Positions 3,001-44,022 of a stretch of DNA of 64,000 nt are shown piece after piece. The DNA is taken from the IMG/VR virus record IMGVR_UViG_3300017605_000087, positions 23,173-87,172 of that record. The stretch is one strand, 5' to 3'. Each line of letters opens with the position of its first letter. The first letter of the stretch is position 1. The notes under the pieces were generated by a model. That model searched no databases and had not been told where the DNA came from. It saw only the letters and a list, made by a program, of their open reading frames with translations. The stretch comes from a virus. The position numbers were made by a program, and so were the translations under genes.

Positions 3001-6000
3001 TATTCTCTACCAGCGGCAAATTCTTTTCCTTTTAGATTAGTTACCTCAAACTCAGGTATTCCAGTTTTAATTGGAGCTAATGTTGTTTTATCATTTTTTC
3101 TAGTTGTAAATATATCAAAGTCGTAATCATCTTCATTATTACCTATGCTTTCATTTACAGCTTTATATATAAGTTTTCCTTTATCATCTCTTGATGTAAC
3201 AACTGCTCCACTAGTTAAATGTGCAATTTTAGCTTTAACAACTATACTCTTATCGGTTCCAATTACATTTCTTATTCTCCTTAGAGTTGTTAAATCTCTG
3301 TTCATTTTGTCATTCCAATTACCTAAGTTCTCAACAAGTTCTTGTTCATTAGGTACACCAGATTTAAAGAAATTATTACCAAAGAATAGTATATTAACTA
3401 AGTGGTCTAATCTTGTTGAAAAATTCTTTTTGACATCAACTTTAGCTTCACCTTTATTTTTTAATACATCTATTAATTCATCATTTTCTTTTAATCTATT
3501 TAACGCATTTAATCTTTCAACTCCTGTTAATGTTCTATATTCTAATATATCATTATATAAAGGATTAACAAAATCGGATATTGAATTGAATCTTTTAATA
3601 CGTTCTACTAGAGCTTCTTCACTTTCTAAATATTTAGAAGCGTTAGCATACGATATAGTATAGTTTATCCCAGGAACATTAATCATTAATGGAACATTGT
3701 TTGCATCATCAGCAAATTTGTTATATAATGGATTAGATTGATCTATTGATATAGATACTTCTGTTCCTACTTTTAATTTATTAAGAATATAATCTATAAC
3801 TCTAGCTCTTTCTTCATCATCAATAATTATATTTCCATCTACTCTTTTCTTATTAATTGGGTCTTTAATAGATTTCTTTTTAGTAGGATCATTTTTATAC
3901 ACAAAAGGAGATGTAAATACATTTAATAATCCTTTACCTCCTTGTTGTCTTATAGATTCACTAATAAAATCCGTATCAAATTGTATATTATCAGTTTCAT
4001 TATTTAACTCATCAAATAAAGATGTTCCGCCCAGTTCTTTTTGCTTTGCTTCCAGATAATTCTGGAAGTTTAAAAATTCATCTTTATCTAATCCTAATTC
4101 TATTATATCATTTTTTATAGTAGCTAGTTCTGTTTCAATAAATTTTAATGTTCCTTCTACATTATTAGCTGCTATTAATTGGTCTATTTTATCTTTCTTT
4201 AAATTTTCACTCATGCCAAATTCTTTAACATTGAATTTACCATCAGTATAATCTGTTTCGTCTGTCGTACTTTCATCAGCAACTTCTTTCTCTATCTCTC
4301 CAGTATCTTGAATTATTTTATTAATAGTTCCAGTTTTACCAGTAAATATTGCTGTTTCTCTTTCACTTAAAGGTTGTTTCTTAATTATTTTGTTAGCTAT
4401 CGAATTTAAGATTGATTCATCAGCTATATTATTATCAATATAATCTTTGAATTGTTCATCAGTGATAGGTTCAGTAGGTTTACTTCTTTCTATTTGTTCT
4501 TTCTGTACATTTAAACCTCTTTTCTTTTTCTGTATATCAATATCAGATTTAGATACTTTAAATCCTAAAGCATCTACTTCTTTTTGTAATTCGTCTAATT
4601 GAGTATTATAATCTCCTTCAACAGTAATAGCAGCTAATTTATCTTTAAGAACTTGTAATTGTTCTTTGTTAGCTTCTATAAATGCTTGTTTTAATTCTGT
4701 TTCTACTTTCTTAACTTCTTTAGGAGAAGTATCAACAGCTACTTTTTCTACTAGATACTCACTTGCTCCATCATAATAGATTTTATCTAGTGTATGTCCT
4801 ACTATATCAGGATTCAATCCTTTTAATAAAAGATCATTTATACTAGCTTTATCTAATATATCTGCTAGTTCATTAGCTCTCTTAGTATAAGATTCTATTA
4901 CACCATTTAATATTTTCTTTGTAGTAGGATTTTGATTAGATAATTCTTCTGTCATTAAATTAATAGATGTAGTAAGGGCATGTAGTTCTAGTATTCCATC
5001 TACATTTACTCCATCTTGTATTAATTTATTATAATGAATATCTTCTGCTTTTAATTTAGCAAGTTTTCCAGCTATTACATTAGATTTACTTTTAATAGTT
5101 TTTGAAGCAACATCATCTTTAATAGCTGAATTTAATATAACTTGTTTAATAGCTTGATTAACAGGAGTTGTAAATAATCTATTAGCATATTTATTATAGG
5201 CTGATTCTACATCTTTCCCTATTTCAAAAGCACGTTTAGAAAATATTACTGCTTCCTCTGGACTTAATTTATACTCATTCTCTAATTGTTTAATAAATTC
5301 AGGATGTGCAAAGTATTGTTTTAATAAATCTGAGTTACCATATTGAGCAGCATTAATCCACATATCAGTTAATGCTTTTTCTTTAATATCAGTGATTAAT
5401 TCATTTTTAGTTTTTTCAATTGTTGCTTCATCTCCTGTAATTTCTTCTCCAGTATAAGGATTAACTCCATTTTTTATTTGATTTAATAAACCAAATGCGC
5501 CCTGTAATTTAACAGTACGGCTTTTAATCTCTGTTATTCTTTCTCTATCAAAAGCATTTCTATCAACACCTTTGAATTTATCCATAGCCCATCCAGTAGC
5601 TCCAGCTACTTTAGTAAATACTGCTCCTCCTCCAACTCCCCAAAATGCTGCTTCCCAAGCGTGTGGGTCAGATATATATTTTTCTAATCTACTTCCAAAT
5701 GATGGGTCGTATGCTTTTTTTAATAGATATTTACCATAATTATTTCCTTCTTTATTTCCAGCATAGTTTATAAATTCTTCTGCTCCTTCACTTAATTCAA
5801 ATTTAAAACTACTTCTCATATCTTTGAAATATAGTCCAAGTTTACTAGGTAAACTTTTTTCAACTACATCTCCAAGTATTTCTTTTTGAGCTAAATTTAC
5901 TGTTGTTTTTTCTCCTAATCCACCAATTAGTTTATTTCTTCCTGCTTTAATTATACTTCCAGGTTTGAATCCAAATAATAAACGAGATTGTAAAACATCA

Positions 6001-6962
6001 AATACAATATTTACCGAATTAATATCATAACTTCTCCAAGCAGCTTTACTTCCAATACTATCAGCAAGTTGTTGTTTACTCATCAATTTTTCGTCCTCAT
6101 CTAATCCAGCATTGTTTTGTTTCCATGTTTCAAAATCACCATCACTCATTGGATTAAATAATTCCAATGCTTCATTTCTAGTTTCTAATAAAGTTTGATT
6201 AGCTTCTCTAAAGTTTTCAGCATGTCGCATACCAACTGCTGTACTAAATATATTAGTCCAATATTTTCCTTTTTCTCCTAACATTGGAATTTTAGCTCCA
6301 AGTTTGGTTAGCATAGTTCCTTTACCAGCAACATTTGCTAACTTAGATATTTTATTTACATATCCTAAAAATTTTCCAGTATATCCTACTGCTTTAGCAG
6401 TTCCTAATCCAGGTATCAATAAAGATAACGAACTTGCAACACTAACTCCATTATCAGCCCACCACGCATAATCTCTTACATCAAATGCTTTGTTAGGATT
6501 TTCTCTATATATAGGCATTTGTTCTTTACTCCATTCAGTAATATTGTTTCCAATATCTGTTAAAGCATTACTAAATTCATGTGGGTTTCCAGTATTTCTT
6601 TCAATTATTGCTTCTGGTATATCTAAAATAGCTCCGACTCCTGCAATAGTTTGTCCTACAATTTCTCCTAGAACAGCTTGTCCTAACATATTACCAGTTT
6701 GTGATAACCAAGATTGATTTTTAGCTTTTAAATAATCATCTAATGTTCCTAATCCAGCGGTATTTTTATCTAATGATAAATAAGGATGCTCTCCAAATAT
6801 AGGAGCATTTGCTAGTTTAGAAAATTGTTGGTAATCGGAAGGCTGCAAATTTCCAGCTAATGTAGAAATCCCTGACGGTTTATCAGTTAAGTTTTTTGCA
6901 GCATCTAAATTGATACCATTAGAACCTTTATTTGGTTCATTGGAACTTGGTAATATAATCAT
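1..6962 (-). CDS. Giant virion/cargo-type protein with zincin motif, C-terminus outside window
   Basis: The frame is open from an ATG at 6962 to the left edge, at least 2,320 codons, so the C-terminus is missing. Seen by translation: a Gly/Ala-rich hydrophobic stretch near residues 165-235, long charged helical regions with many Lys and Glu, a metalloprotease-type HELVH at residues 1679-1683, and an acidic DYDFD at 1279-1283. It follows two other large proteins downstream of the muzzle gene, the place where crAss-like phages encode ejected cargo proteins and the giant virion RNA polymerase. HExxH is the zinc and catalytic signature of zincins. I infer a virion-packaged, ejected multidomain protein that may cut a host or phage protein. 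I cannot show an RNA polymerase domain; that could lie in this protein or in the next gene to the left. Confidence 0.75.
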   Translation of the reverse strand, partial: MIILPSSNEPNKGSNGINLDAAKNLTDKPSGISTLAGNLQPSDYQQFSKLANAPIFGEHPYLSLDKNTAGLGTLDDYLKAKNQSWLSQTGNMLGQAVLGEIVGQTIAGVGAILDIPEAIIERNTGNPHEFSNALTDIGNNITEWSKEQMPIYRENPNKAFDVRDYAWWADNGVSVASSLSLLIPGLGTAKAVGYTGKFLGYVNKISKLANVAGKGTMLTKLGAKIPMLGEKGKYWTNIFSTAVGMRHAENFREANQTLLETRNEALELFNPMSDGDFETWKQNNAGLDEDEKLMSKQQLADSIGSKAAWRSYDINSVNIVFDVLQSRLLFGFKPGSIIKAGRNKLIGGLGEKTTVNLAQKEILGDVVEKSLPSKLGLYFKDMRSSFKFELSEGAEEFINYAGNKEGNNYGKYLLKKAYDPSFGSRLEKYISDPHAWEAAFWGVGGGAVFTKVAGATGWAMDKFKGVDRNAFDRERITEIKSRTVKLQGAFGLLNQIKNGVNPYTGEEITGDEATIEKTKNELITDIKEKALTDMWINAAQYGNSDLLKQYFAHPEFIKQLENEYKLSPEEAVIFSKRAFEIGKDVESAYNKYANRLFTTPVNQAIKQVILNSAIKDDVASKTIKSKSNVIAGKLAKLKAEDIHYNKLIQDGVNVDGILELHALTTSINLMTEELSNQNPTTKKILNGVIESYTKRANELADILDKASINDLLLKGLNPDIVGHTLDKIYYDGASEYLVEKVAVDTSPKEVKKVETELKQAFIEANKEQLQVLKDKLAAITVEGDYNTQLDELQKEVDALGFKVSKSDIDIQKKKRGLNVQKEQIERSKPTEPITDEQFKDYIDNNIADESILNSIANKIIKKQPLSERETAIFTGKTGTINKIIQDTGEIEKEVADESTTDETDYTDGKFNVKEFGMSENLKKDKIDQLIAANNVEGTLKFIETELATIKNDIIELGLDKDEFLNFQNYLEAKQKELGGTSLFDELNNETDNIQFDTDFISESIRQQGGKGLLNVFTSPFVYKNDPTKKKSIKDPINKKRVDGNIIIDDEERARVIDYILNKLKVGTEVSISIDQSNPLYNKFADDANNVPLMINVPGINYTISYANASKYLESEEALVERIKRFNSISDFVNPLYNDILEYRTLTGVERLNALNRLKENDELIDVLKNKGEAKVDVKKNFSTRLDHLVNILFFGNNFFKSGVPNEQELVENLGNWNDKMNRDLTTLRRIRNVIGTDKSIVVKAKIAHLTSGAVVTSRDDKGKLIYKAVNESIGNNEDDYDFDIFTTRKNDKTTLAPIKTGIPEFEVTNLKGKEFAAGREYVVLKSGEQRIGIPLIRTNIGLTISPSLEQGELSDTLKEAKAYQKKLSDKLADYIFQLRPILQQSGIRLDNAELTQLKHEIESITIVSETYPDEDTQDDGRFKILVGAKKKVKFGEEEKTVDNRVQFKHDGKLVKIFFTEGGGINVDYDGKVVNSNKEGEDEVRKLLSRLFTGLERNVDYFWLKLDGPYYDTVSGIEYDSYKHYIIQTGGLITNIGKVLDGQGNKISNFTNDLTNNRSKDFVGFPLIINIKPEFETPSDELSQERVAGEETDNEMVKFAKSLITKDSADTLLPVIEKYNFLYEEAIKANIEIEQKLRPTFKDEIGNNVKGAYTRKENKVYFTQAIRGLSSSNRLGTFNHELVHGVIANGLKNDEQRKQFETKLKGFWATIKFDEEKGKRKITQEQRIGLSLYIFNATPDALNNNQQNELRNAIIFINRVIELVDSGKVEEIVTYGLTQPVFGAFLDSIKVKGENNQPESLWTKLKRLIVETFNQITGRSKLDELTDILNEQFNNNITDLKAHSNKTDIQKKLGDAFGDEFDSITEEGELYEEVGNTGDKESKKDQESSEFFITEGFTGEEENHLINVTGGLFLSTLGDVKALEDANVSGKGIDGIRIAILKHLRNKINDNDFISNLGEKQADLYNRYVENLRKYDSEIWEKSKLYITNEYNISPELIEQFTEQYLEKNWNDTAVLEMSSKDNVLAEIKLLILTTPKADANQSYVDEQGLLKYKPTTNTLSGLGETISFNVAYNTIANNMLGKYDKYEMLDAIKFMAENIDPSYYHIFYRVRENEQLLNAWYHSFNKQRPAVVVQLYKKLRDKFEVKPDYGNKKSLYETLEADDIVAKIKNRIANGYYTSDVISGIEKEKNTLVKYLNEGGNLDTDIISKQLTKLYKDLGITTNNLDKAIKFELEKESNIRKYYNQVPLNITNKKGWITQRLTKDKFVSSIDYLLDYINKANSNPNVDVTFSQYGNVMQLAVITAPFNEHRTDSVYMNVKT

Positions 6963-9406: not shown

Positions 9407-12178
9407 TTAGAAATCTTTTTCAGTTTTGTTAGTTCCATTTAACTCATTATATAATTTGATAGCGTCTTTAGTATCTCTACCTGTACGTTTCAAATCTTTA
9501 ATATCCCCTTCAAGCATTGCAGGATATTGTTTATACACATCTTTTAAGAATTGTGTATCTTGTAAATTTGCAGGAACTACTCCTGTATCTCTAAATTGCT
9601 TAGATAATATTTGCCATTTTTGTTTATCTAAATCTGACATGTTTTTCTCTGCTTGTTGTTGTCCATAATCAGATACAGCATTGGCTACATTACTACTCAA
9701 TGATGATAATATTCCTTTTTCTCTTAGAGCTACATCTTGATTATATCTATCTATATTAGCAAAATTATGTGCTGATATAGATTGATCGTTTAACATTTTT
9801 GTATTCTCTAATTGATTCTCTGTATTTTCTTTTGTAGTATAAGCTGAGTTTTTAGCAGACATGGTGTTAACATCTGCTGCCATTTTATTTACTCTAGCTA
9901 TTGCACTACTTGATGTATTAGCATCTATATCTTCCTTCGACCCTCTATTAATTCTATCAATTGCTGCTAATTGGTCATTAATATCGAACTTAGTATTTAA
10001 TGGTGCGGCATTAATTTTATTTGGAATAGGAACTTTAGGAGATGCTAATGTAGTTGCAAGATTAAACATATTATCTACATAAGGAGCTATACTAGCAAAT
10101 CCATTTCCTTTATTATTTGCCGGACTATTATTACTATTCATATTAGAAGGTTCTACTCCTTCAACTTTAGGTGTTGGTGTATAACTTTTTTCTAATGTAT
10201 TCTTATTTATAATATCATTAATACTCTTCATTATATCCTTTGTAGTAGGATTATACGTATCAATTGGATTCTGTTTCTCTCTTATATAATAAGGATTTTG
10301 ACTATTATCAGCAGTGAATTGTCCATTATTATTAGGCATTCCCCAAGCTAGATTTTGAGTTTCTGTTGGATATAATTGAACCTCTGGGTATGGGTCTGTT
10401 TCTCCTCCATTTGGATAACGCATTGCCATTCCTCCTTTTTTAAAACCTACTATAAAATTTTTCAACATATTTTCATCTGTTACTTGTTGATTATTATGTA
10501 GAGTATCAACTACTGTATTATTATCTAATATATATTGTCCATATTTATCAGTAGCGTATGGATTTAATCTAAAGTCTAATGCACCTTTATAATAAGTACC
10601 CTTACTATTTTCCTCATTAGCATCTACTCCAGTGTGGTGCATAGGAACCCAATATTGTGATGTATATTGACCTATCCATCCATCTACATCTGATAATGAT
10701 TGTGGAGCATGACTTCTATTTATTTTAGTACCTAATGTTGGACTATTATAGATGTCATTATAATATTGTTGCATTTTCTTAACATAAGAATCTTTCTCAT
10801 ATTTAAAATTAGGATTAGATTTAGTATATTCAGTCCATATATCATTACTTAAATTACCTTGACTTCTATCTAATTTTGTACGATCTACATTATTATCTGT
10901 TAAGTATTTATTATAATAGGAAATTAATCCAGTCCAATCTTGTATCTCTTGTCTAGTTGGTACAGTTCCACCATCAGGATACATTCCAATCTTCATTCCA
11001 TCTTTAGCAAATCCTGCCATTCCTCCATAATTACCATTCATTGATTGTTGAGTCTGAAATAACTTCTCTATTAAGAAATCACTATTCATCATTTCTTTCT
11101 CAAATGTATCACTTAAAATTGGATCAATTATTTTATCATTAATGTTCTCTTTTCTATCTCCATATTTCTTCATCGTCTTCTGCTTATCTTTCAATAATTT
11201 AGCATGACGTTCTGCAAATGTTTCTTTAGTTCCTGGAACTTTTAATGAATCACTAAATATTTTATTTCCATCTACTGTTTCTCCTCCTTCTGCTTCTATT
11301 ATATTTCCTTGTCCTGTTGCAATTTTAACTCCACCTTTATCATGTTGTTTACCAACAATCACCCCTTCATTCTCACCAGTTACACTAGGAACTATTGTTC
11401 CACCTTGTAATGGTTTCATTCTTTGTTGCATTTCTTGAGGAACAGCCATTCCTCCATAATTAAAATATGATGAAAAGTTTGTTCCTTGTGTTGGATATTG
11501 ATTTAAGTAGGCTTTATCTTGAGTTATTTGTTGATCTCTTGCCATCTTCTCTTTCTCTTTCCTTTTTTCTTTCTCAGAGAAACCATCTATTACAGAAGAT
11601 ATTAAACCACCTACTACTGGTATTTGACTTGCTAATCCACTAAATACTCCAGCACCATCTACTTTTCCTCCTGCTATTCCTTCTGTAATTGCTGGTGAAA
11701 CAGCATTAGAGAATGCTCCAAATAATCCTCCACCCGCACCACCTAACATATCACCCATTCCTCCACCACCTCCACTTTTTGCTCCTTCTAAAGCTCCAGC
11801 AGCACTTGATTTTTCACTTGCTTGTTGTAATATTTTTCCTGTTTTTGGGTCTATTAAATTTCCATATTTATCATACAATTCTTTTTCATAAATTGCATCT
11901 CCTCCAGTTCCAAATTCAGGAGTCTTACTAGAATTAGTAAGATACGTATTAAATGTCTTATCTAAATACTCATCGTATTTTTTATCTTGTTTATCAAATG
12001 AACCAAATGCAAATCTATTAGCATAGTCTTGCATTTCTTCATTATTAGTAAATGTTACTGCTCCATGTTTTTGGAGGTCAGCAACATCTATATTTTTTCC
12101 ATCGTAGTTAACAAAGTATTTACCTCTACTGTTATCTACATTAAATGGTTGTTGTCTATTCTTTTTACTTTTACTCAT
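9407..12178 (-). CDS. Large virion cargo-type protein with repeated GG motifs (923 aa)
   Basis: The N-terminal 120 residues are polar. Residues 130-195 form a Gly/Ala-rich, weakly hydrophobic segment (GGGGGMGDMLGGAGGG) that could insert in membranes. It is followed by a dense Lys/Glu stretch. Short motifs recur: FNYGGMA near 239, NYGGMAGFAKDGM near 383, GMYPDGGT near 398 and KKGGMAMRYPNGGET near 580. HDKGGVKI and EAEGGE sit at 279-300. The motifs at 398 and 588 flank a compact 180-residue region rich in Trp, Tyr and His. The C-terminal third is Asn-rich, then helical. Gene order next to the muzzle gene suggests an ejected cargo protein; cleavage at the GG motifs is a hypothesis. Confidence 0.7.
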   Translation of the reverse strand: MSKSKKNRQQPFNVDNSRGKYFVNYDGKNIDVADLQKHGAVTFTNNEEMQDYANRFAFGSFDKQDKKYDEYLDKTFNTYLTNSSKTPEFGTGGDAIYEKELYDKYGNLIDPKTGKILQQASEKSSAAGALEGAKSGGGGGMGDMLGGAGGGLFGAFSNAVSPAITEGIAGGKVDGAGVFSGLASQIPVVGGLISSVIDGFSEKEKRKEKEKMARDQQITQDKAYLNQYPTQGTNFSSYFNYGGMAVPQEMQQRMKPLQGGTIVPSVTGENEGVIVGKQHDKGGVKIATGQGNIIEAEGGETVDGNKIFSDSLKVPGTKETFAERHAKLLKDKQKTMKKYGDRKENINDKIIDPILSDTFEKEMMNSDFLIEKLFQTQQSMNGNYGGMAGFAKDGMKIGMYPDGGTVPTRQEIQDWTGLISYYNKYLTDNNVDRTKLDRSQGNLSNDIWTEYTKSNPNFKYEKDSYVKKMQQYYNDIYNSPTLGTKINRSHAPQSLSDVDGWIGQYTSQYWVPMHHTGVDANEENSKGTYYKGALDFRLNPYATDKYGQYILDNNTVVDTLHNNQQVTDENMLKNFIVGFKKGGMAMRYPNGGETDPYPEVQLYPTETQNLAWGMPNNNGQFTADNSQNPYYIREKQNPIDTYNPTTKDIMKSINDIINKNTLEKSYTPTPKVEGVEPSNMNSNNSPANNKGNGFASIAPYVDNMFNLATTLASPKVPIPNKINAAPLNTKFDINDQLAAIDRINRGSKEDIDANTSSSAIARVNKMAADVNTMSAKNSAYTTKENTENQLENTKMLNDQSISAHNFANIDRYNQDVALREKGILSSLSSNVANAVSDYGQQQAEKNMSDLDKQKWQILSKQFRDTGVVPANLQDTQFLKDVYKQYPAMLEGDIKDLKRTGRDTKDAIKLYNELNGTNKTEKDF

Positions 12179-12184
12179 GTGTTA

Positions 12185-15100
12185 CTATCTAAAGTTTTGC
12201 ATGTAGTTAACTATACTGTCATGGAAGTAAAAATCTTTTTGGATATTATTGTCGTAAATATAGCGAACAATTACGAATTTTCCAAGTAAATTATCTTTTT
12301 TAAACCAAGTTTTTTGTGCAGCTATGTTAATAGTATTTACACTTCTATCTTCATTTATTATAGGGTTGTTCTTATTAATTACCATATCTCTAATCTCATT
12401 ATAATTCCAGCTTCCTTCTATAAATCTATTATTTCTTTGGAACCATAATAAGTCTGGTACAGCTATTATTCCAGTACATTGATCTGTATTATATAAACAT
12501 ATATGTGTAAGAGTTTCATTAAAGAACCTTGTTTCATTAACTTCTACTTCTGTAACCCATGTAACACTTTCTACTATTTTAGTAACTTCAGGAGATTCAT
12601 TATGAATCATATCCCAATATGAAGGATATACAGTTGCATCATAATATATTCCTTTTATTGTTTTAATGTTATGTTTAAATATTCTTCCTAATGTTGAAGT
12701 ATTATTTATAGCATATATTCCTGATCTATTATGAAATAAATGATTAGGGTAATAATCGTGGAATGATACCCAACCCCCTTGCCCTTGATTAATTTCTGGA
12801 CTATATGATATAGTCCACTTTTTATACACAAAATCTCCAACTAGAGCTTGTGGTCCACCTGGCTCTCCTACTATATGATTTTCTACTAAAGGTCTATATA
12901 TAGGATTATCATCTTCATCAAACTCTTCTAATATTACTATATTACCATCTACTAAAAAAGCATCTCCTATTTGATCTTCATCTATATCTGGAGATAATAT
13001 TCCATGATATATTACATCGTCATTAAGTCTTATATCATTTTTACTAATTATAACTCTATTGAATTGTTCGTCAAAAGCTGCTGTTAATCCAAACTCAGTA
13101 AAGGGATTATCTATATCTAATGTAGTATTAGTATTAGCTCTCATCCAATTACGAACATTTAAGTTACTAATTTCTTTTAATGCTCCATCAAATATAAATA
13201 TTTTTCCTTGTTGTCTATCTAAAAATACATATCCTAATTTACAAGTGAAACTTGCCCATTGAGATTGATTTCCTGCATACCCTTCTCTTGTAGGTAATAC
13301 ATTTTGTGGAGGTCTATCAAATACATCACCTGTTCCTATATATACTTCTGTTATATCAGAAGATAATTTGTCTTTATTTAAAGCAGTATATAAACTATAT
13401 TTCTGATGTATAATTAAAGTCTTATCAAGAGTTTCTAATTTCCATACTTCTCCTTTATCTTTTTCTCCTTCGTGATATTCATTAGCTCTGAATTTTCTCC
13501 AAGATTCACTTTTTTCTTCATCTTGAGTTACATCAGTTCTTGCTACTCTATATGGTAGTTTATCTATAAATCTATCATACGGACTCCATGAACCGGGAAA
13601 CTTTAAATTCATTATTGATGAATAGCTAGGGTCATAATCTATATCTACACTCCATTTATTTGGAGCATTAAACCCTAAATTTTTCTTTCCACTTCCCATT
13701 AGTAAATGACTTGGAATCTGTGAAAAGTCATTACCTCTGTTTAATACATAATTGTAATTAGAATAACATGGAAATCTAAAATGTAATCCTAATGCTGTAT
13801 TAATTATATGTGTATTCTCAAGAGCTTCATCTCCATCTATATGTGTACAAACACTTAAATCATTCTCCCAATTAGTATTAGCTGGATAATAAGTAGTTCC
13901 AGCTTCACTATAAAAATTATGTTTAATTGAATACCCTGTAATAAATGTATCGAAATTAAATAATCCTCCTATTGGGCCATTTACTCCAGCATTTACTGGA
14001 TGAATTAATTTACTTGCTAATGCTAAATCTTGTTCATAAAAATTAGTATGAACATTTTTTATCATACTCATTATATTACCAACAGCAAAATAAAACAGAT
14101 TTACTTTTACTTCATCATGGTCTGACCCTGGATAATTCAATTCATCTCCTTGATCGTTAGCATTATCAAAACCTCTTCTAATTCTATATCTTGAAAGTAA
14201 ATCTGTACTTGTATTTTCAAATGTTGCTCTAATACATGCTTCTCTAGTATTATTAGATATAGGAACAGTAGCGGAATTATTCTCTGGAATATATTCAAAT
14301 TTCTTTATTGCTCTATATGCAAGGTTATCTGCTATCCAAGTTGTTCCAGTAGTATCAGGAACACCTGTTAATCCAGGCCCAGTAAGAACTGGTCCAGGAG
14401 GATTTCCAAGAGATACTGGAGAGTTTACGTTAGTAGATATATATTCTCCTTTTATGTACCTTGCATTAACACTTGGTGTGTTATGTAATAAAGGTATATC
14501 ATAAAGTCTTGCATGAGCATTACTAATTACAGTTCCGGGAGTATAAAATCCATTCAAATCAGGCCCACTTAATGTAGTATCGTTACCATACATTGCCTCT
14601 CTATATATAGGACTTGTTCCTAAAACTGTACTATTATCTAATGTTTTAATTGCATAACTAAATACAATTCCTTGTATCTGGTCTTTTAAATATTGTGGTA
14701 TTTCAATATTATGAAATCTTATCTTTATAAACTTATTAAGGTTAGCAAAACTTGTTCCACCATACATTGTTTTCAATCCTGGCATTCTATGATGTCTAAC
14801 CTTTTGTCCTCTTAAATCAATTCCTCCTGCAATAGCATTTCCATCATAATCTATTGTTCCATCATATTCATCTAAGTTAGGATATGTTTCATCTTCATTC
14901 TCCCAATATCCCGGATACTTACCACTGACAGGATGATTTATATTTGCTGTATCTCTAGTATGAAATAGTTTTGCAGAATCAGCAACACCTAATGCTGCTT
15001 CATCAGCACCAAATTCAGCAGGTTCAGCAGCAACAGCATTTGTTACAGTTTCATCTTCATCAAAAGCAGTTGCTCCAATAGTTATTTGTTGAACTTCTCT

Positions 15101-42625: not shown

Positions 42626-42922
42626 ATGAAATTTGTAGTTTACACAGTCGGAACAATTATCTGTTTAAATACCAACAAAAGATTAAATTCACAGGATAAA
42701 CCTGAAGGATTTAAAATGGAATTAGAAACAGATGAATTAACAGAAGCATTAGCTAAATTTCAGGAGTTACAAGATGCTAATCCACAAAATCCTGCACAGA
42801 ACCTATTAGATGAGAATAGTGATTGGGATAGCAAAGAGATGGATGAGGCAATAGAGAAAGCAAACTCTGAAAAGAAAGAAGAGGTTAAAGAAAAACCAGA
42901 GAGATCAACTGATGATAAGTAA
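42626..42922 (+). CDS. Acidic unknown protein (98 aa)
   Basis: The N-terminal 20 residues are hydrophobic and beta-like. The rest is Glu/Lys/Asp-rich and helical, with a disordered C-terminus (KEKPERSTDDK). The stop overlaps the next start by 11 bp, so both are coupled. The leader before it is a variant of the recurrent element. Function unknown. Confidence 0.6.
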   Translation: MKFVVYTVGTIICLNTNKRLNSQDKPEGFKMELETDELTEALAKFQELQDANPQNPAQNLLDENSDWDSKEMDEAIEKANSEKKEEVKEKPERSTDDK

Positions 42923-43361
42923 TGAACTTGAAGTTGAAATAGAAGATATTGCTGATGCCAGAGTATTTATATTAGCTGGTAATGCAATATTTACTCTAGT
43001 TGGTGAAAAGACTAGATTTACGTACAGAGTGAGAAAGAAAACTTTTAATCTTAGTAGTGAGTTCTATTATTATACAGTTGAAGTATTAACTGGAATGAAT
43101 AATAATACTGATTATACTAATATTGGAAAGATTATAGATATGGGTACAATATACAAATATACTTTAAGAAACAATGAGAAAGAAGCTCCATTAAGTGTTA
43201 GAGCATTTGCATGGTTCTTTAAAAGATTAATGTGTAAATTACCTGATATTAATAGAGTAAAATTCTATCATGTTGGAAGATGTGGTAGATGTGGAAGAAG
43301 ATTAACAACACCTGAATCAATACAAACTGGCATGGGAGAAATATGTGCTAGTAAAATGTAA
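42912..43361 (+). CDS. Protein with C-terminal zinc-binding CGRCGRxL motif (149 aa)
   Basis: The last 30 residues contain GRCGRCGRRLTTPESIQTG and end EICASKM. This is a motif I know from many phage and actinobacterial proteins (DUF6011-type), where C-C-C zinc binding is assumed. The preceding 110 residues are beta-rich and contain an Arg/Lys/Tyr-rich segment. It likely binds nucleic acid. The large structured region begins immediately after its stop. Confidence 0.6.
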   Translation: MISNELEVEIEDIADARVFILAGNAIFTLVGEKTRFTYRVRKKTFNLSSEFYYYTVEVLTGMNNNTDYTNIGKIIDMGTIYKYTLRNNEKEAPLSVRAFAWFFKRLMCKLPDINRVKFYHVGRCGRCGRRLTTPESIQTGMGEICASKM

Positions 43362-43896
43362 TATGTCTGCTAGACATGTCAATGAACTATGGTGGGACAC
43401 AACACCTAGAGTAGTAATACTCTTATGAACAGCAGTTCTCGCAACCGGAACCGTTCTTTGTATATGAACCATGATATTAGCGAGGTTAGAAACTCACATG
43501 GACTGTCGATTCGTCAACAGAAGAGAAACAGAAGGACTAAATAGTTTATTTAAAATATACTTATACAATTGGCTCTCTATATTGGGATAGTGGGAGATAC
43601 GACTGCTCCACCAGAGGACAACCGTTAAGACAACCATTTAGAGTAGGAGATGATAATGTCATGGACTCCTGTGTAAGTTGCTTCACCGAATGAGTAGCTC
43701 AACTCTATTAGGTATATATGTACGATGGATATGAAGTAAATGAAGTCGTATGAAGATAGGACATATCGGTCGCACAGTTGCCTGAGAACCAACTGATGCC
43801 CATACCGATAAGTAGCGAACCTGTTATAGTGAGGTGATAAGCTATTCCTCACTTCCCTTCGGGGATTAAAACGTAACCAATTAAATACATAACATA
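43362..43896 (+). ncRNA. Candidate large structured RNA (about 500 nt)
   Basis: A 535-bp gap with no normal gene and visibly higher GC than its neighbours. Perfect or near-perfect stems follow one another: 43363-43377; 43408-43423 (GUAA loop); 43427-43438; 43590-43611 (one bulge); 43645-43670; 43721-43750; 43764-43810 (three nested stems); 43828-43853; and 43854-43865 with a C(UUCG)G tetraloop. It ends at a copy of the recurrent leader before ATG 43897. I do not recognise it as a known phage RNA class. A 39-codon frame (43425-43544) overlaps its first third. Confidence 0.6.
43425..43544 (+). CDS. Possible basic 39-aa peptide inside the structured region
   Basis: The ATG follows a GUAA hairpin by one base. 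The frame reads MNSSSRNRNRSLYMNHDISE and continues to QQKRNRRTK, then TAG. The composition (10 Arg/Lys in 39) is plausible for a nucleic-acid-binding peptide but could be chance. Low confidence. Confidence 0.25.
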   Translation: MNSSSRNRNRSLYMNHDISEVRNSHGLSIRQQKRNRRTK

Positions 43897-44022
43897 ATGG
43901 AAACTAGAATTAAAAAGAAAGTATCTTATAATAAAGTAGGTGTACCATTTAATGCTGGAGCTTACAGATGTATAGGAGGCACAGGAAGTGGGGTTATACC
44001 AATCTTTATTTATATGAATTAA
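43897..44022 (+). CDS. Small unknown protein (41 aa)
   Basis: The frame from ATG 43897 (METRIKKKVSYNKVGVPFNA) ends with a hydrophobic IPIFIYMN tail. Its TAA lies one base before the next ATG, and it has a copy of the recurrent leader, so it is likely translated. Basic N-terminus, Gly-rich middle. Function unknown. Confidence 0.5.
   Translation: METRIKKKVSYNKVGVPFNAGAYRCIGGTGSGVIPIFIYMN

Follow-up and report, generated by a model that had tools for sequence, protein, structure and literature searches.

What occupies the 535-bp gap at positions 43362-43896 of a 64,000-nt stretch of viral DNA (hereafter the window; positions 23,173-87,172 of the 87-kb IMG/VR record IMGVR_UViG_3300017605_000087), bounded as it is by one + strand ORF at 42912-43361 and by a second that starts at 43897? 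A reading made before any database search had placed there a candidate large structured RNA of a crAss-like phage and listed several hairpins as evidence. The assignment of the phage is borne out by its TerL (phrog_6681), portal (phrog_6547) and MCP (phrog_11589), and tblastn with the TerL of the window returned 145 records, mainly of crAss-like phages and also of Flavobacterium phages. As had been claimed, no plausible ORF fills the gap, and its end coincides with a recurrent leader of which the window holds five copies where shuffling expects none; the leader directly precedes an ATG in a small-gene cassette on the + strand. The hairpins that had been named are likewise all present: AGAGUA(GUAA)UACUCU, CCC(UUCG)GGG and a two-part nested 16-pair stem near 43764-43810.

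What is conserved in the gap is nevertheless not a structured RNA of 535 nt. The gap as a whole folds no better than its shuffled versions (MFE z = -1.2 on the + strand, with 14 of 100 shuffles equally good, and -0.6 on the - strand), and its conserved part amounts to only about 120 nt. None of the listed hairpins belongs to this part, and neither homologues nor covariation support were detected for the GUAA hairpin, the UUCG hairpin or the 16-bp stem. The sequence-only reading correctly saw that the gap holds a structured RNA not described before; it erred on how far this RNA extends and on which hairpins count. Only the 3' part of the gap at 43760-43870 is unusually stable (z = -3.1, equalled by 0 of 200 shuffles) and forms four hairpins, from the nested 16-bp stem through the UUCG hairpin; no homologue of it was detected, and it is possibly a second RNA or a structure of the leader.

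The conserved element came to light when a blastn search with the gap returned a single 67-bp block in the crAss-like phage cr126_1, where it is unannotated and has a tRNA-Lys gene on either side, both in an array of 20 tRNAs. A 20-mer of this block recovered 10 IMG/VR contigs and looser patterns recovered more, while among 84,980 species genomes scanned for the exact core one true copy came up, on the contig of a MAG (L023); the core matches at L019, L021, L022 and L024, which appear to be chance occurrences inside genes, were set aside. There are 14 distinct copies, one per record: those of cr126_1, the MAG contig and the window, and the remainder from IMG/VR. A covariance model (R1) trained on six class A members, the window not among them, finds the window copy at 43570-43668 (E = 2.9e-5 in 237 kb searched) and the remaining subgroups at E <= 5e-6. 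Outside the element the window and the other loci share no similarity, and the neighbouring proteins of the window have no relatives in IMG/VR. A coding frame behind the conservation was to count against the earlier reading, and no frame on either strand stays open across all members. The parts of the element are given in Table 1.

Table 1. Positions of the conserved element, its predicted helices and associated features (window coordinates unless a locus is named)
Feature	Position	Strand	Pairing or basis
Conserved element, P0 to P0', about 120 nt, within the gap	43559-43678	+	blastn to cr126_1, model R1, comparative structure
P0, 5' strand ACUUAUACA	43559-43567	+	pairs with 43670-43678
P1, 5' strand CUCUA	43575-43579	+	pairs with 43639-43643
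P2 (pseudoknot), 5' strand GGAG	43593-43596	+	pairs with 43666-43669
Nearly invariant 28-nt core CACCAGAGGACAACCGUUAAGACAACCA	43609-43636	+	alignment of 14 sequences
P1, 3' strand UAGAG	43639-43643	+	pairs with 43575-43579
Hairpin AUGA/UCAU between P1' and P2'	43650-43662	+	sequence comparison; window's subgroup only
P2 (pseudoknot), 3' strand CUCC	43666-43669	+	pairs with 43593-43596
P0, 3' strand UGUGUAAGU	43670-43678	+	pairs with 43559-43567
Recurrent leader AACCAATTAA-N(0-8)-ACATAA	41397, 42259, 43875, 44624, 44889	+	motif count against shuffles
tRNA-Leu-like genes with the element	L015 10346-10520; L018 3188-3344		

The predicted fold is an H-type pseudoknot in which the strands of P1 flank the core, the 5' strand of P2 lies inside P1 and its 3' strand follows P1. 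Compensating base changes, whose absence was to count against the earlier reading, are seen in the stems of the homologues. P0 pairs in 10 of the 10 members where it is assignable, with differing sequences, and the four inner pairs of P1 form in all 12 compared sequences with 4-5 pair types each; the putative P2, which reads GGGAG/CUCCU in the window as against GGCUU/AAGCU in relatives, is supported by fewer independent changes than P1 and P0. Within the class A alignment 11 of 16 pairs have changed on both sides and 90.6% of cells are paired, compared to at most 55% with slid partners. Across all members the covariation score is 0.866 versus 0.228 for shuffled and at most 0.254 for slid partners, in an alignment that had been adjusted to the structure. 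In the alignment A7 the placement of L010, L023 and the window is imperfect, and as a check there are alignment-independent counts for P1, P0 and P2 and a permutation: P1 strands taken by conserved landmarks form 6.6 bp, compared to 4.3 when partners are permuted (0/5000), the kinship of the sequences being ignored.

The core follows the consensus CACCAGAGGACAACCRUUAAGAYAACCA, whose R and Y, G43624 and C43631 of the window, change together in all members (G always with C, A always with U); most of the 26 invariant columns of the 14-sequence alignment fall in it. The counterpart of the hairpin at 43650-43662 is UUAGU/ACUAA in L010 and L023. Ordinary folding of 43554-43680 gives a z of about 0, because a pseudoknot with a long and mostly unpaired core escapes this type of calculation.

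The RNA family is new in that it is absent from Rfam 15: cmscan at loose thresholds with the window and the homologues matched the element to no family, known ribozymes included. Within the open literature no description of such an element was found. Intron_gpI does not match the element, whether that of the window or that of L008, and the helix order and sequence of the element are unfit for a group I core; where the two occur together, in L005, the element is an insertion within a separate group I intron. With ARAGORN and Rfam the element itself never matched a tRNA or tmRNA, only its neighbours or host RNAs did, and no tRNA was found by these means in the window or in the entire 87-kb record; a tmRNA surrounding the window copy was rejected, there being no Rfam match.

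Some known phage and regulatory RNAs invite comparison. GOLLD and ROOL are structured, pseudoknotted noncoding RNAs of phages and prophages that are often located near tRNA islands, and the element is like them a pseudoknotted phage RNA with a tRNA-island niche (PMC12286853). They are, however, several times larger, many GOLLD RNAs exceeding 800 nt compared to about 120 nt here, and constitute a different family, without an Rfam match to the element. The H-type pseudoknot riboswitches preQ1-II, SAM-II and c-di-GMP-II have a conserved, partly A/C-rich single-stranded core, and in this as in the pseudoknot the element resembles them; unlike them it has no Rfam match, is not the leader of one gene and has no downstream gene common to its loci, where the neighbours differ. 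The type III antitoxin RNAs ToxI, CptI and TenpI are small, pseudoknotted and engaged in phage-host conflict, and consist of short tandem repeats beside a toxin gene, whereas the element is present in single copy and has no consistent neighbour.

The carriers appear to be crAss-like phages. The portal phrog_6547 is encoded in 9 of 9 searched element-carrying records longer than 36 kb; the fragments G008, G009 and G011 and the contig L023 lay outside the phage typing. A restriction to Crassvirales is likely and not proven, since the gene next to L016 (in G009) has relatives that are not crAss-like and those four sequences are untyped. No convincing copy was found in 14 other Crassvirales-type genomes, crAss001 and a Kolpuevirus among them (best E 0.09), nor any match in 396 Bacteroidota genomes in a weak search with strict filters and no positive control. 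The distribution is patchy. Some features of the carriers deserve mention in their own right. One 144-kb crAss-like record encodes a GroEL-like chaperonin (L014 8110-9648) and an RNA ligase (G007 70398-71009); the ligase was considered as a partner of the element and dismissed, being found in G007 only. Portal matches run across one TGA in the record of L010 (G004, 9962-12586) and across one TAA in cr126_1 (62486-64861), for which recoding, interruption or sequencing error are possible explanations.

The genomic contexts delimit the element and bear on its nature. In cr126_1 and L013 it lies between tRNA-Lys(CUU) and tRNA-Lys(UUU), and crAss001, cr112_1 and PhiCrAssBcn1 carry the matching tRNA-Lys pair without it, crAss001 and PhiCrAssBcn being cultured Kehishuvirus phages. 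Measured against this empty site, the insert is about 114 nt, has P0 and P0' as its limits and is present or absent as one unit. In L008 the neighbours of the element are tRNA-Asp and tRNA-Gly, within an array of 21 tRNAs. The window and L010 depart from this pattern in that their copies lie in long tRNA-free gaps, that of the window within the + strand small-gene cassette and with no recognised promoter, tRNA or terminator adjoining. The gap of L010, about 520 nt, together with the stability of 43760-43870 beyond 200 of 200 shuffles, is what might recommend a single large RNA spanning the whole 535 nt of which 43559-43678 is a domain. We regard such an RNA as very improbable given the whole-gap z of -1.2, a similarity between the window and other loci that ends with the element, and the short unit gained or lost in cr126_1.

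Elsewhere the element is associated with other stable RNAs. In L020 the host RNA is a permuted tmRNA (RF04321, E = 4e-6, under the gathering score), with the element in its intervening sequence, and in L011 the element directly follows a standard tmRNA. These tmRNAs are of interest in themselves, the one at about 5671-6008 (-) of L020 being circularly permuted and in a crAss-like phage record, the other (L011 3347-3655) of standard form and in a record with a crAss-like portal. In L003 a tRNA-like minihelix, GCCGGAG...GGTTCGATT...CTCCGGCA, without D and anticodon arms, lies just 3' of the element (- strand, below 4137). At L005, L006 and L009 the element is inserted between P7-5' and P3' of a group I intron (Intron_gpI, E = 4.6e-14), with a GIY-YIG endonuclease ORF adjoining and an ATPase ORF just downstream; this intron with its GIY-YIG ORF (L005 2565-3718, and L056 in the contig of L009) apparently sits in the P-loop region of the ATPase gene.

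Over 330 nt this intron is identical in two contigs whose ATPases are only 93% identical, which suggests recent homing; a copy of the L005 intron without the element was looked for and not found. The element could be conceived as selfish, or as a passenger: an RNA module able to spread between phages and to persist in discarded parts of stable RNAs without benefit to the phage. The 100% identity of the intron copy against the diverged ATPase protein would fit, as would a patchy distribution combined with a nearly invariant core and the 14 Crassvirales-type genomes that lack it. We hold this to be quite unlikely, for most copies have no adjoining mobility gene, there is one copy per record, and the strict conservation of fold and core argues for selection on the RNA itself.

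Two further loci, L015 and L018, carry the element in a tRNA-Leu-like gene, replacing the anticodon and variable arms (the tRNA of L018 scores 39 bits, E = 4e-7). An intron of tRNA-Leu was considered and rejected: members that lie outside tRNAs have counterparts of the flanking UGUAUU and GAGAUAUUAUU, and removal of the supposed intron from L015 would restore no complete anticodon stem, so that the flanks are read as parts of the element. This position, and that in the group I intron, where the element sits on a peripheral insertion, would suit a cis-acting aptamer or protein-binding tag controlling its carrier RNA (intron splicing, or maturation of the tRNA-like RNA or tmRNA), and c-di-GMP-II aptamers, which sit beside some introns, offer a parallel. 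Against this role, to which we assign a small probability, most copies are separate intergenic units, no downstream gene is shared and two copies resemble free transcription units.

The latter are L014 and L017, in which a promoter-like TTG-N20-TATATTTG, presumably of the Bacteroidota type, ends 6 nt upstream of P0. U-runs follow P0' in L017 and in L008 (U6 in the latter). Where a stable RNA recognised by a search tool adjoins or surrounds the element, both have the same sense in 9 of 9 distinct contigs (L015 by its similarity to L018). The conserved fold, the invariant core, this same-sense placement and the promoter-like sequence in two genomes point to an RNA as the product. That a complete unit recurs in unrelated transcripts, mostly in parts that are removed, suggests a free small RNA that borrows transcription and processing. 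We therein see about an even chance that the element represents an undescribed crAss-like phage family of stable, trans-acting small noncoding RNAs of about 120 nt. Such an RNA would be transcribed from its own promoter in L014 and L017, or else as a passenger of stable-RNA precursors, mostly in discarded parts (tRNA spacer, intervening sequence of the permuted tmRNA, intron periphery), from which tRNA-type processing would release it. P1 and P2 would keep the invariant core rigid; its surface may bind one factor, a protein or small molecule, that is conserved across hosts, and the RNA may then act in trans while the phage infects its host, for example as a decoy or a modulator. L015 and L018, where the element replaces the anticodon arm of tRNA-Leu, are not accounted for by a release through tRNA processing. 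An antisense action on rRNA was discarded, as the complementarity of the core to rRNA regions of one Bacteroidota genome is no better than that of shuffles.

The same contexts could be read in terms of catalysis. A new small self-cleaving or self-excising ribozyme, its active site formed by the pseudoknot around the core and its cut near P0, would separate tRNAs or free the pieces of intron and tmRNA, and the element is indeed placed between RNAs that need separation. In size, pseudoknot compaction, long invariant core and variable closing stem it resembles HDV-like, twister, pistol, hatchet and hammerhead ribozymes; it differs from them in matching none of the Rfam 15 ribozyme families. Host enzymes already cut tRNA spacers, moreover, and the units of L014 and L017 have P0 as their start and end and need no cut there, so that we consider a ribozyme unlikely. 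A mobile catalytic module unlike known introns, inserting into crAss-like stable-RNA transcripts and cutting or splicing itself out, would, if real, account for the locations in tRNA spacer, permuted tmRNA, group I intron and tRNA-Leu-like gene; we think it improbable.

The crAss-like phages rank with the most abundant viruses of the human gut, and we found no structured RNA gene of this kind reported for them in the open literature. The novelty pertains to the RNA family, as judged against Rfam 15, and the mechanism is only inferred. The element has covariation in its support, is defined as a precise unit by the empty site and lends itself well to experiment. That it is repeatedly placed next to stable RNAs, or in parts of them that are discarded, suggests either a cheap way of producing a small RNA or a mobile RNA of a kind not yet known.
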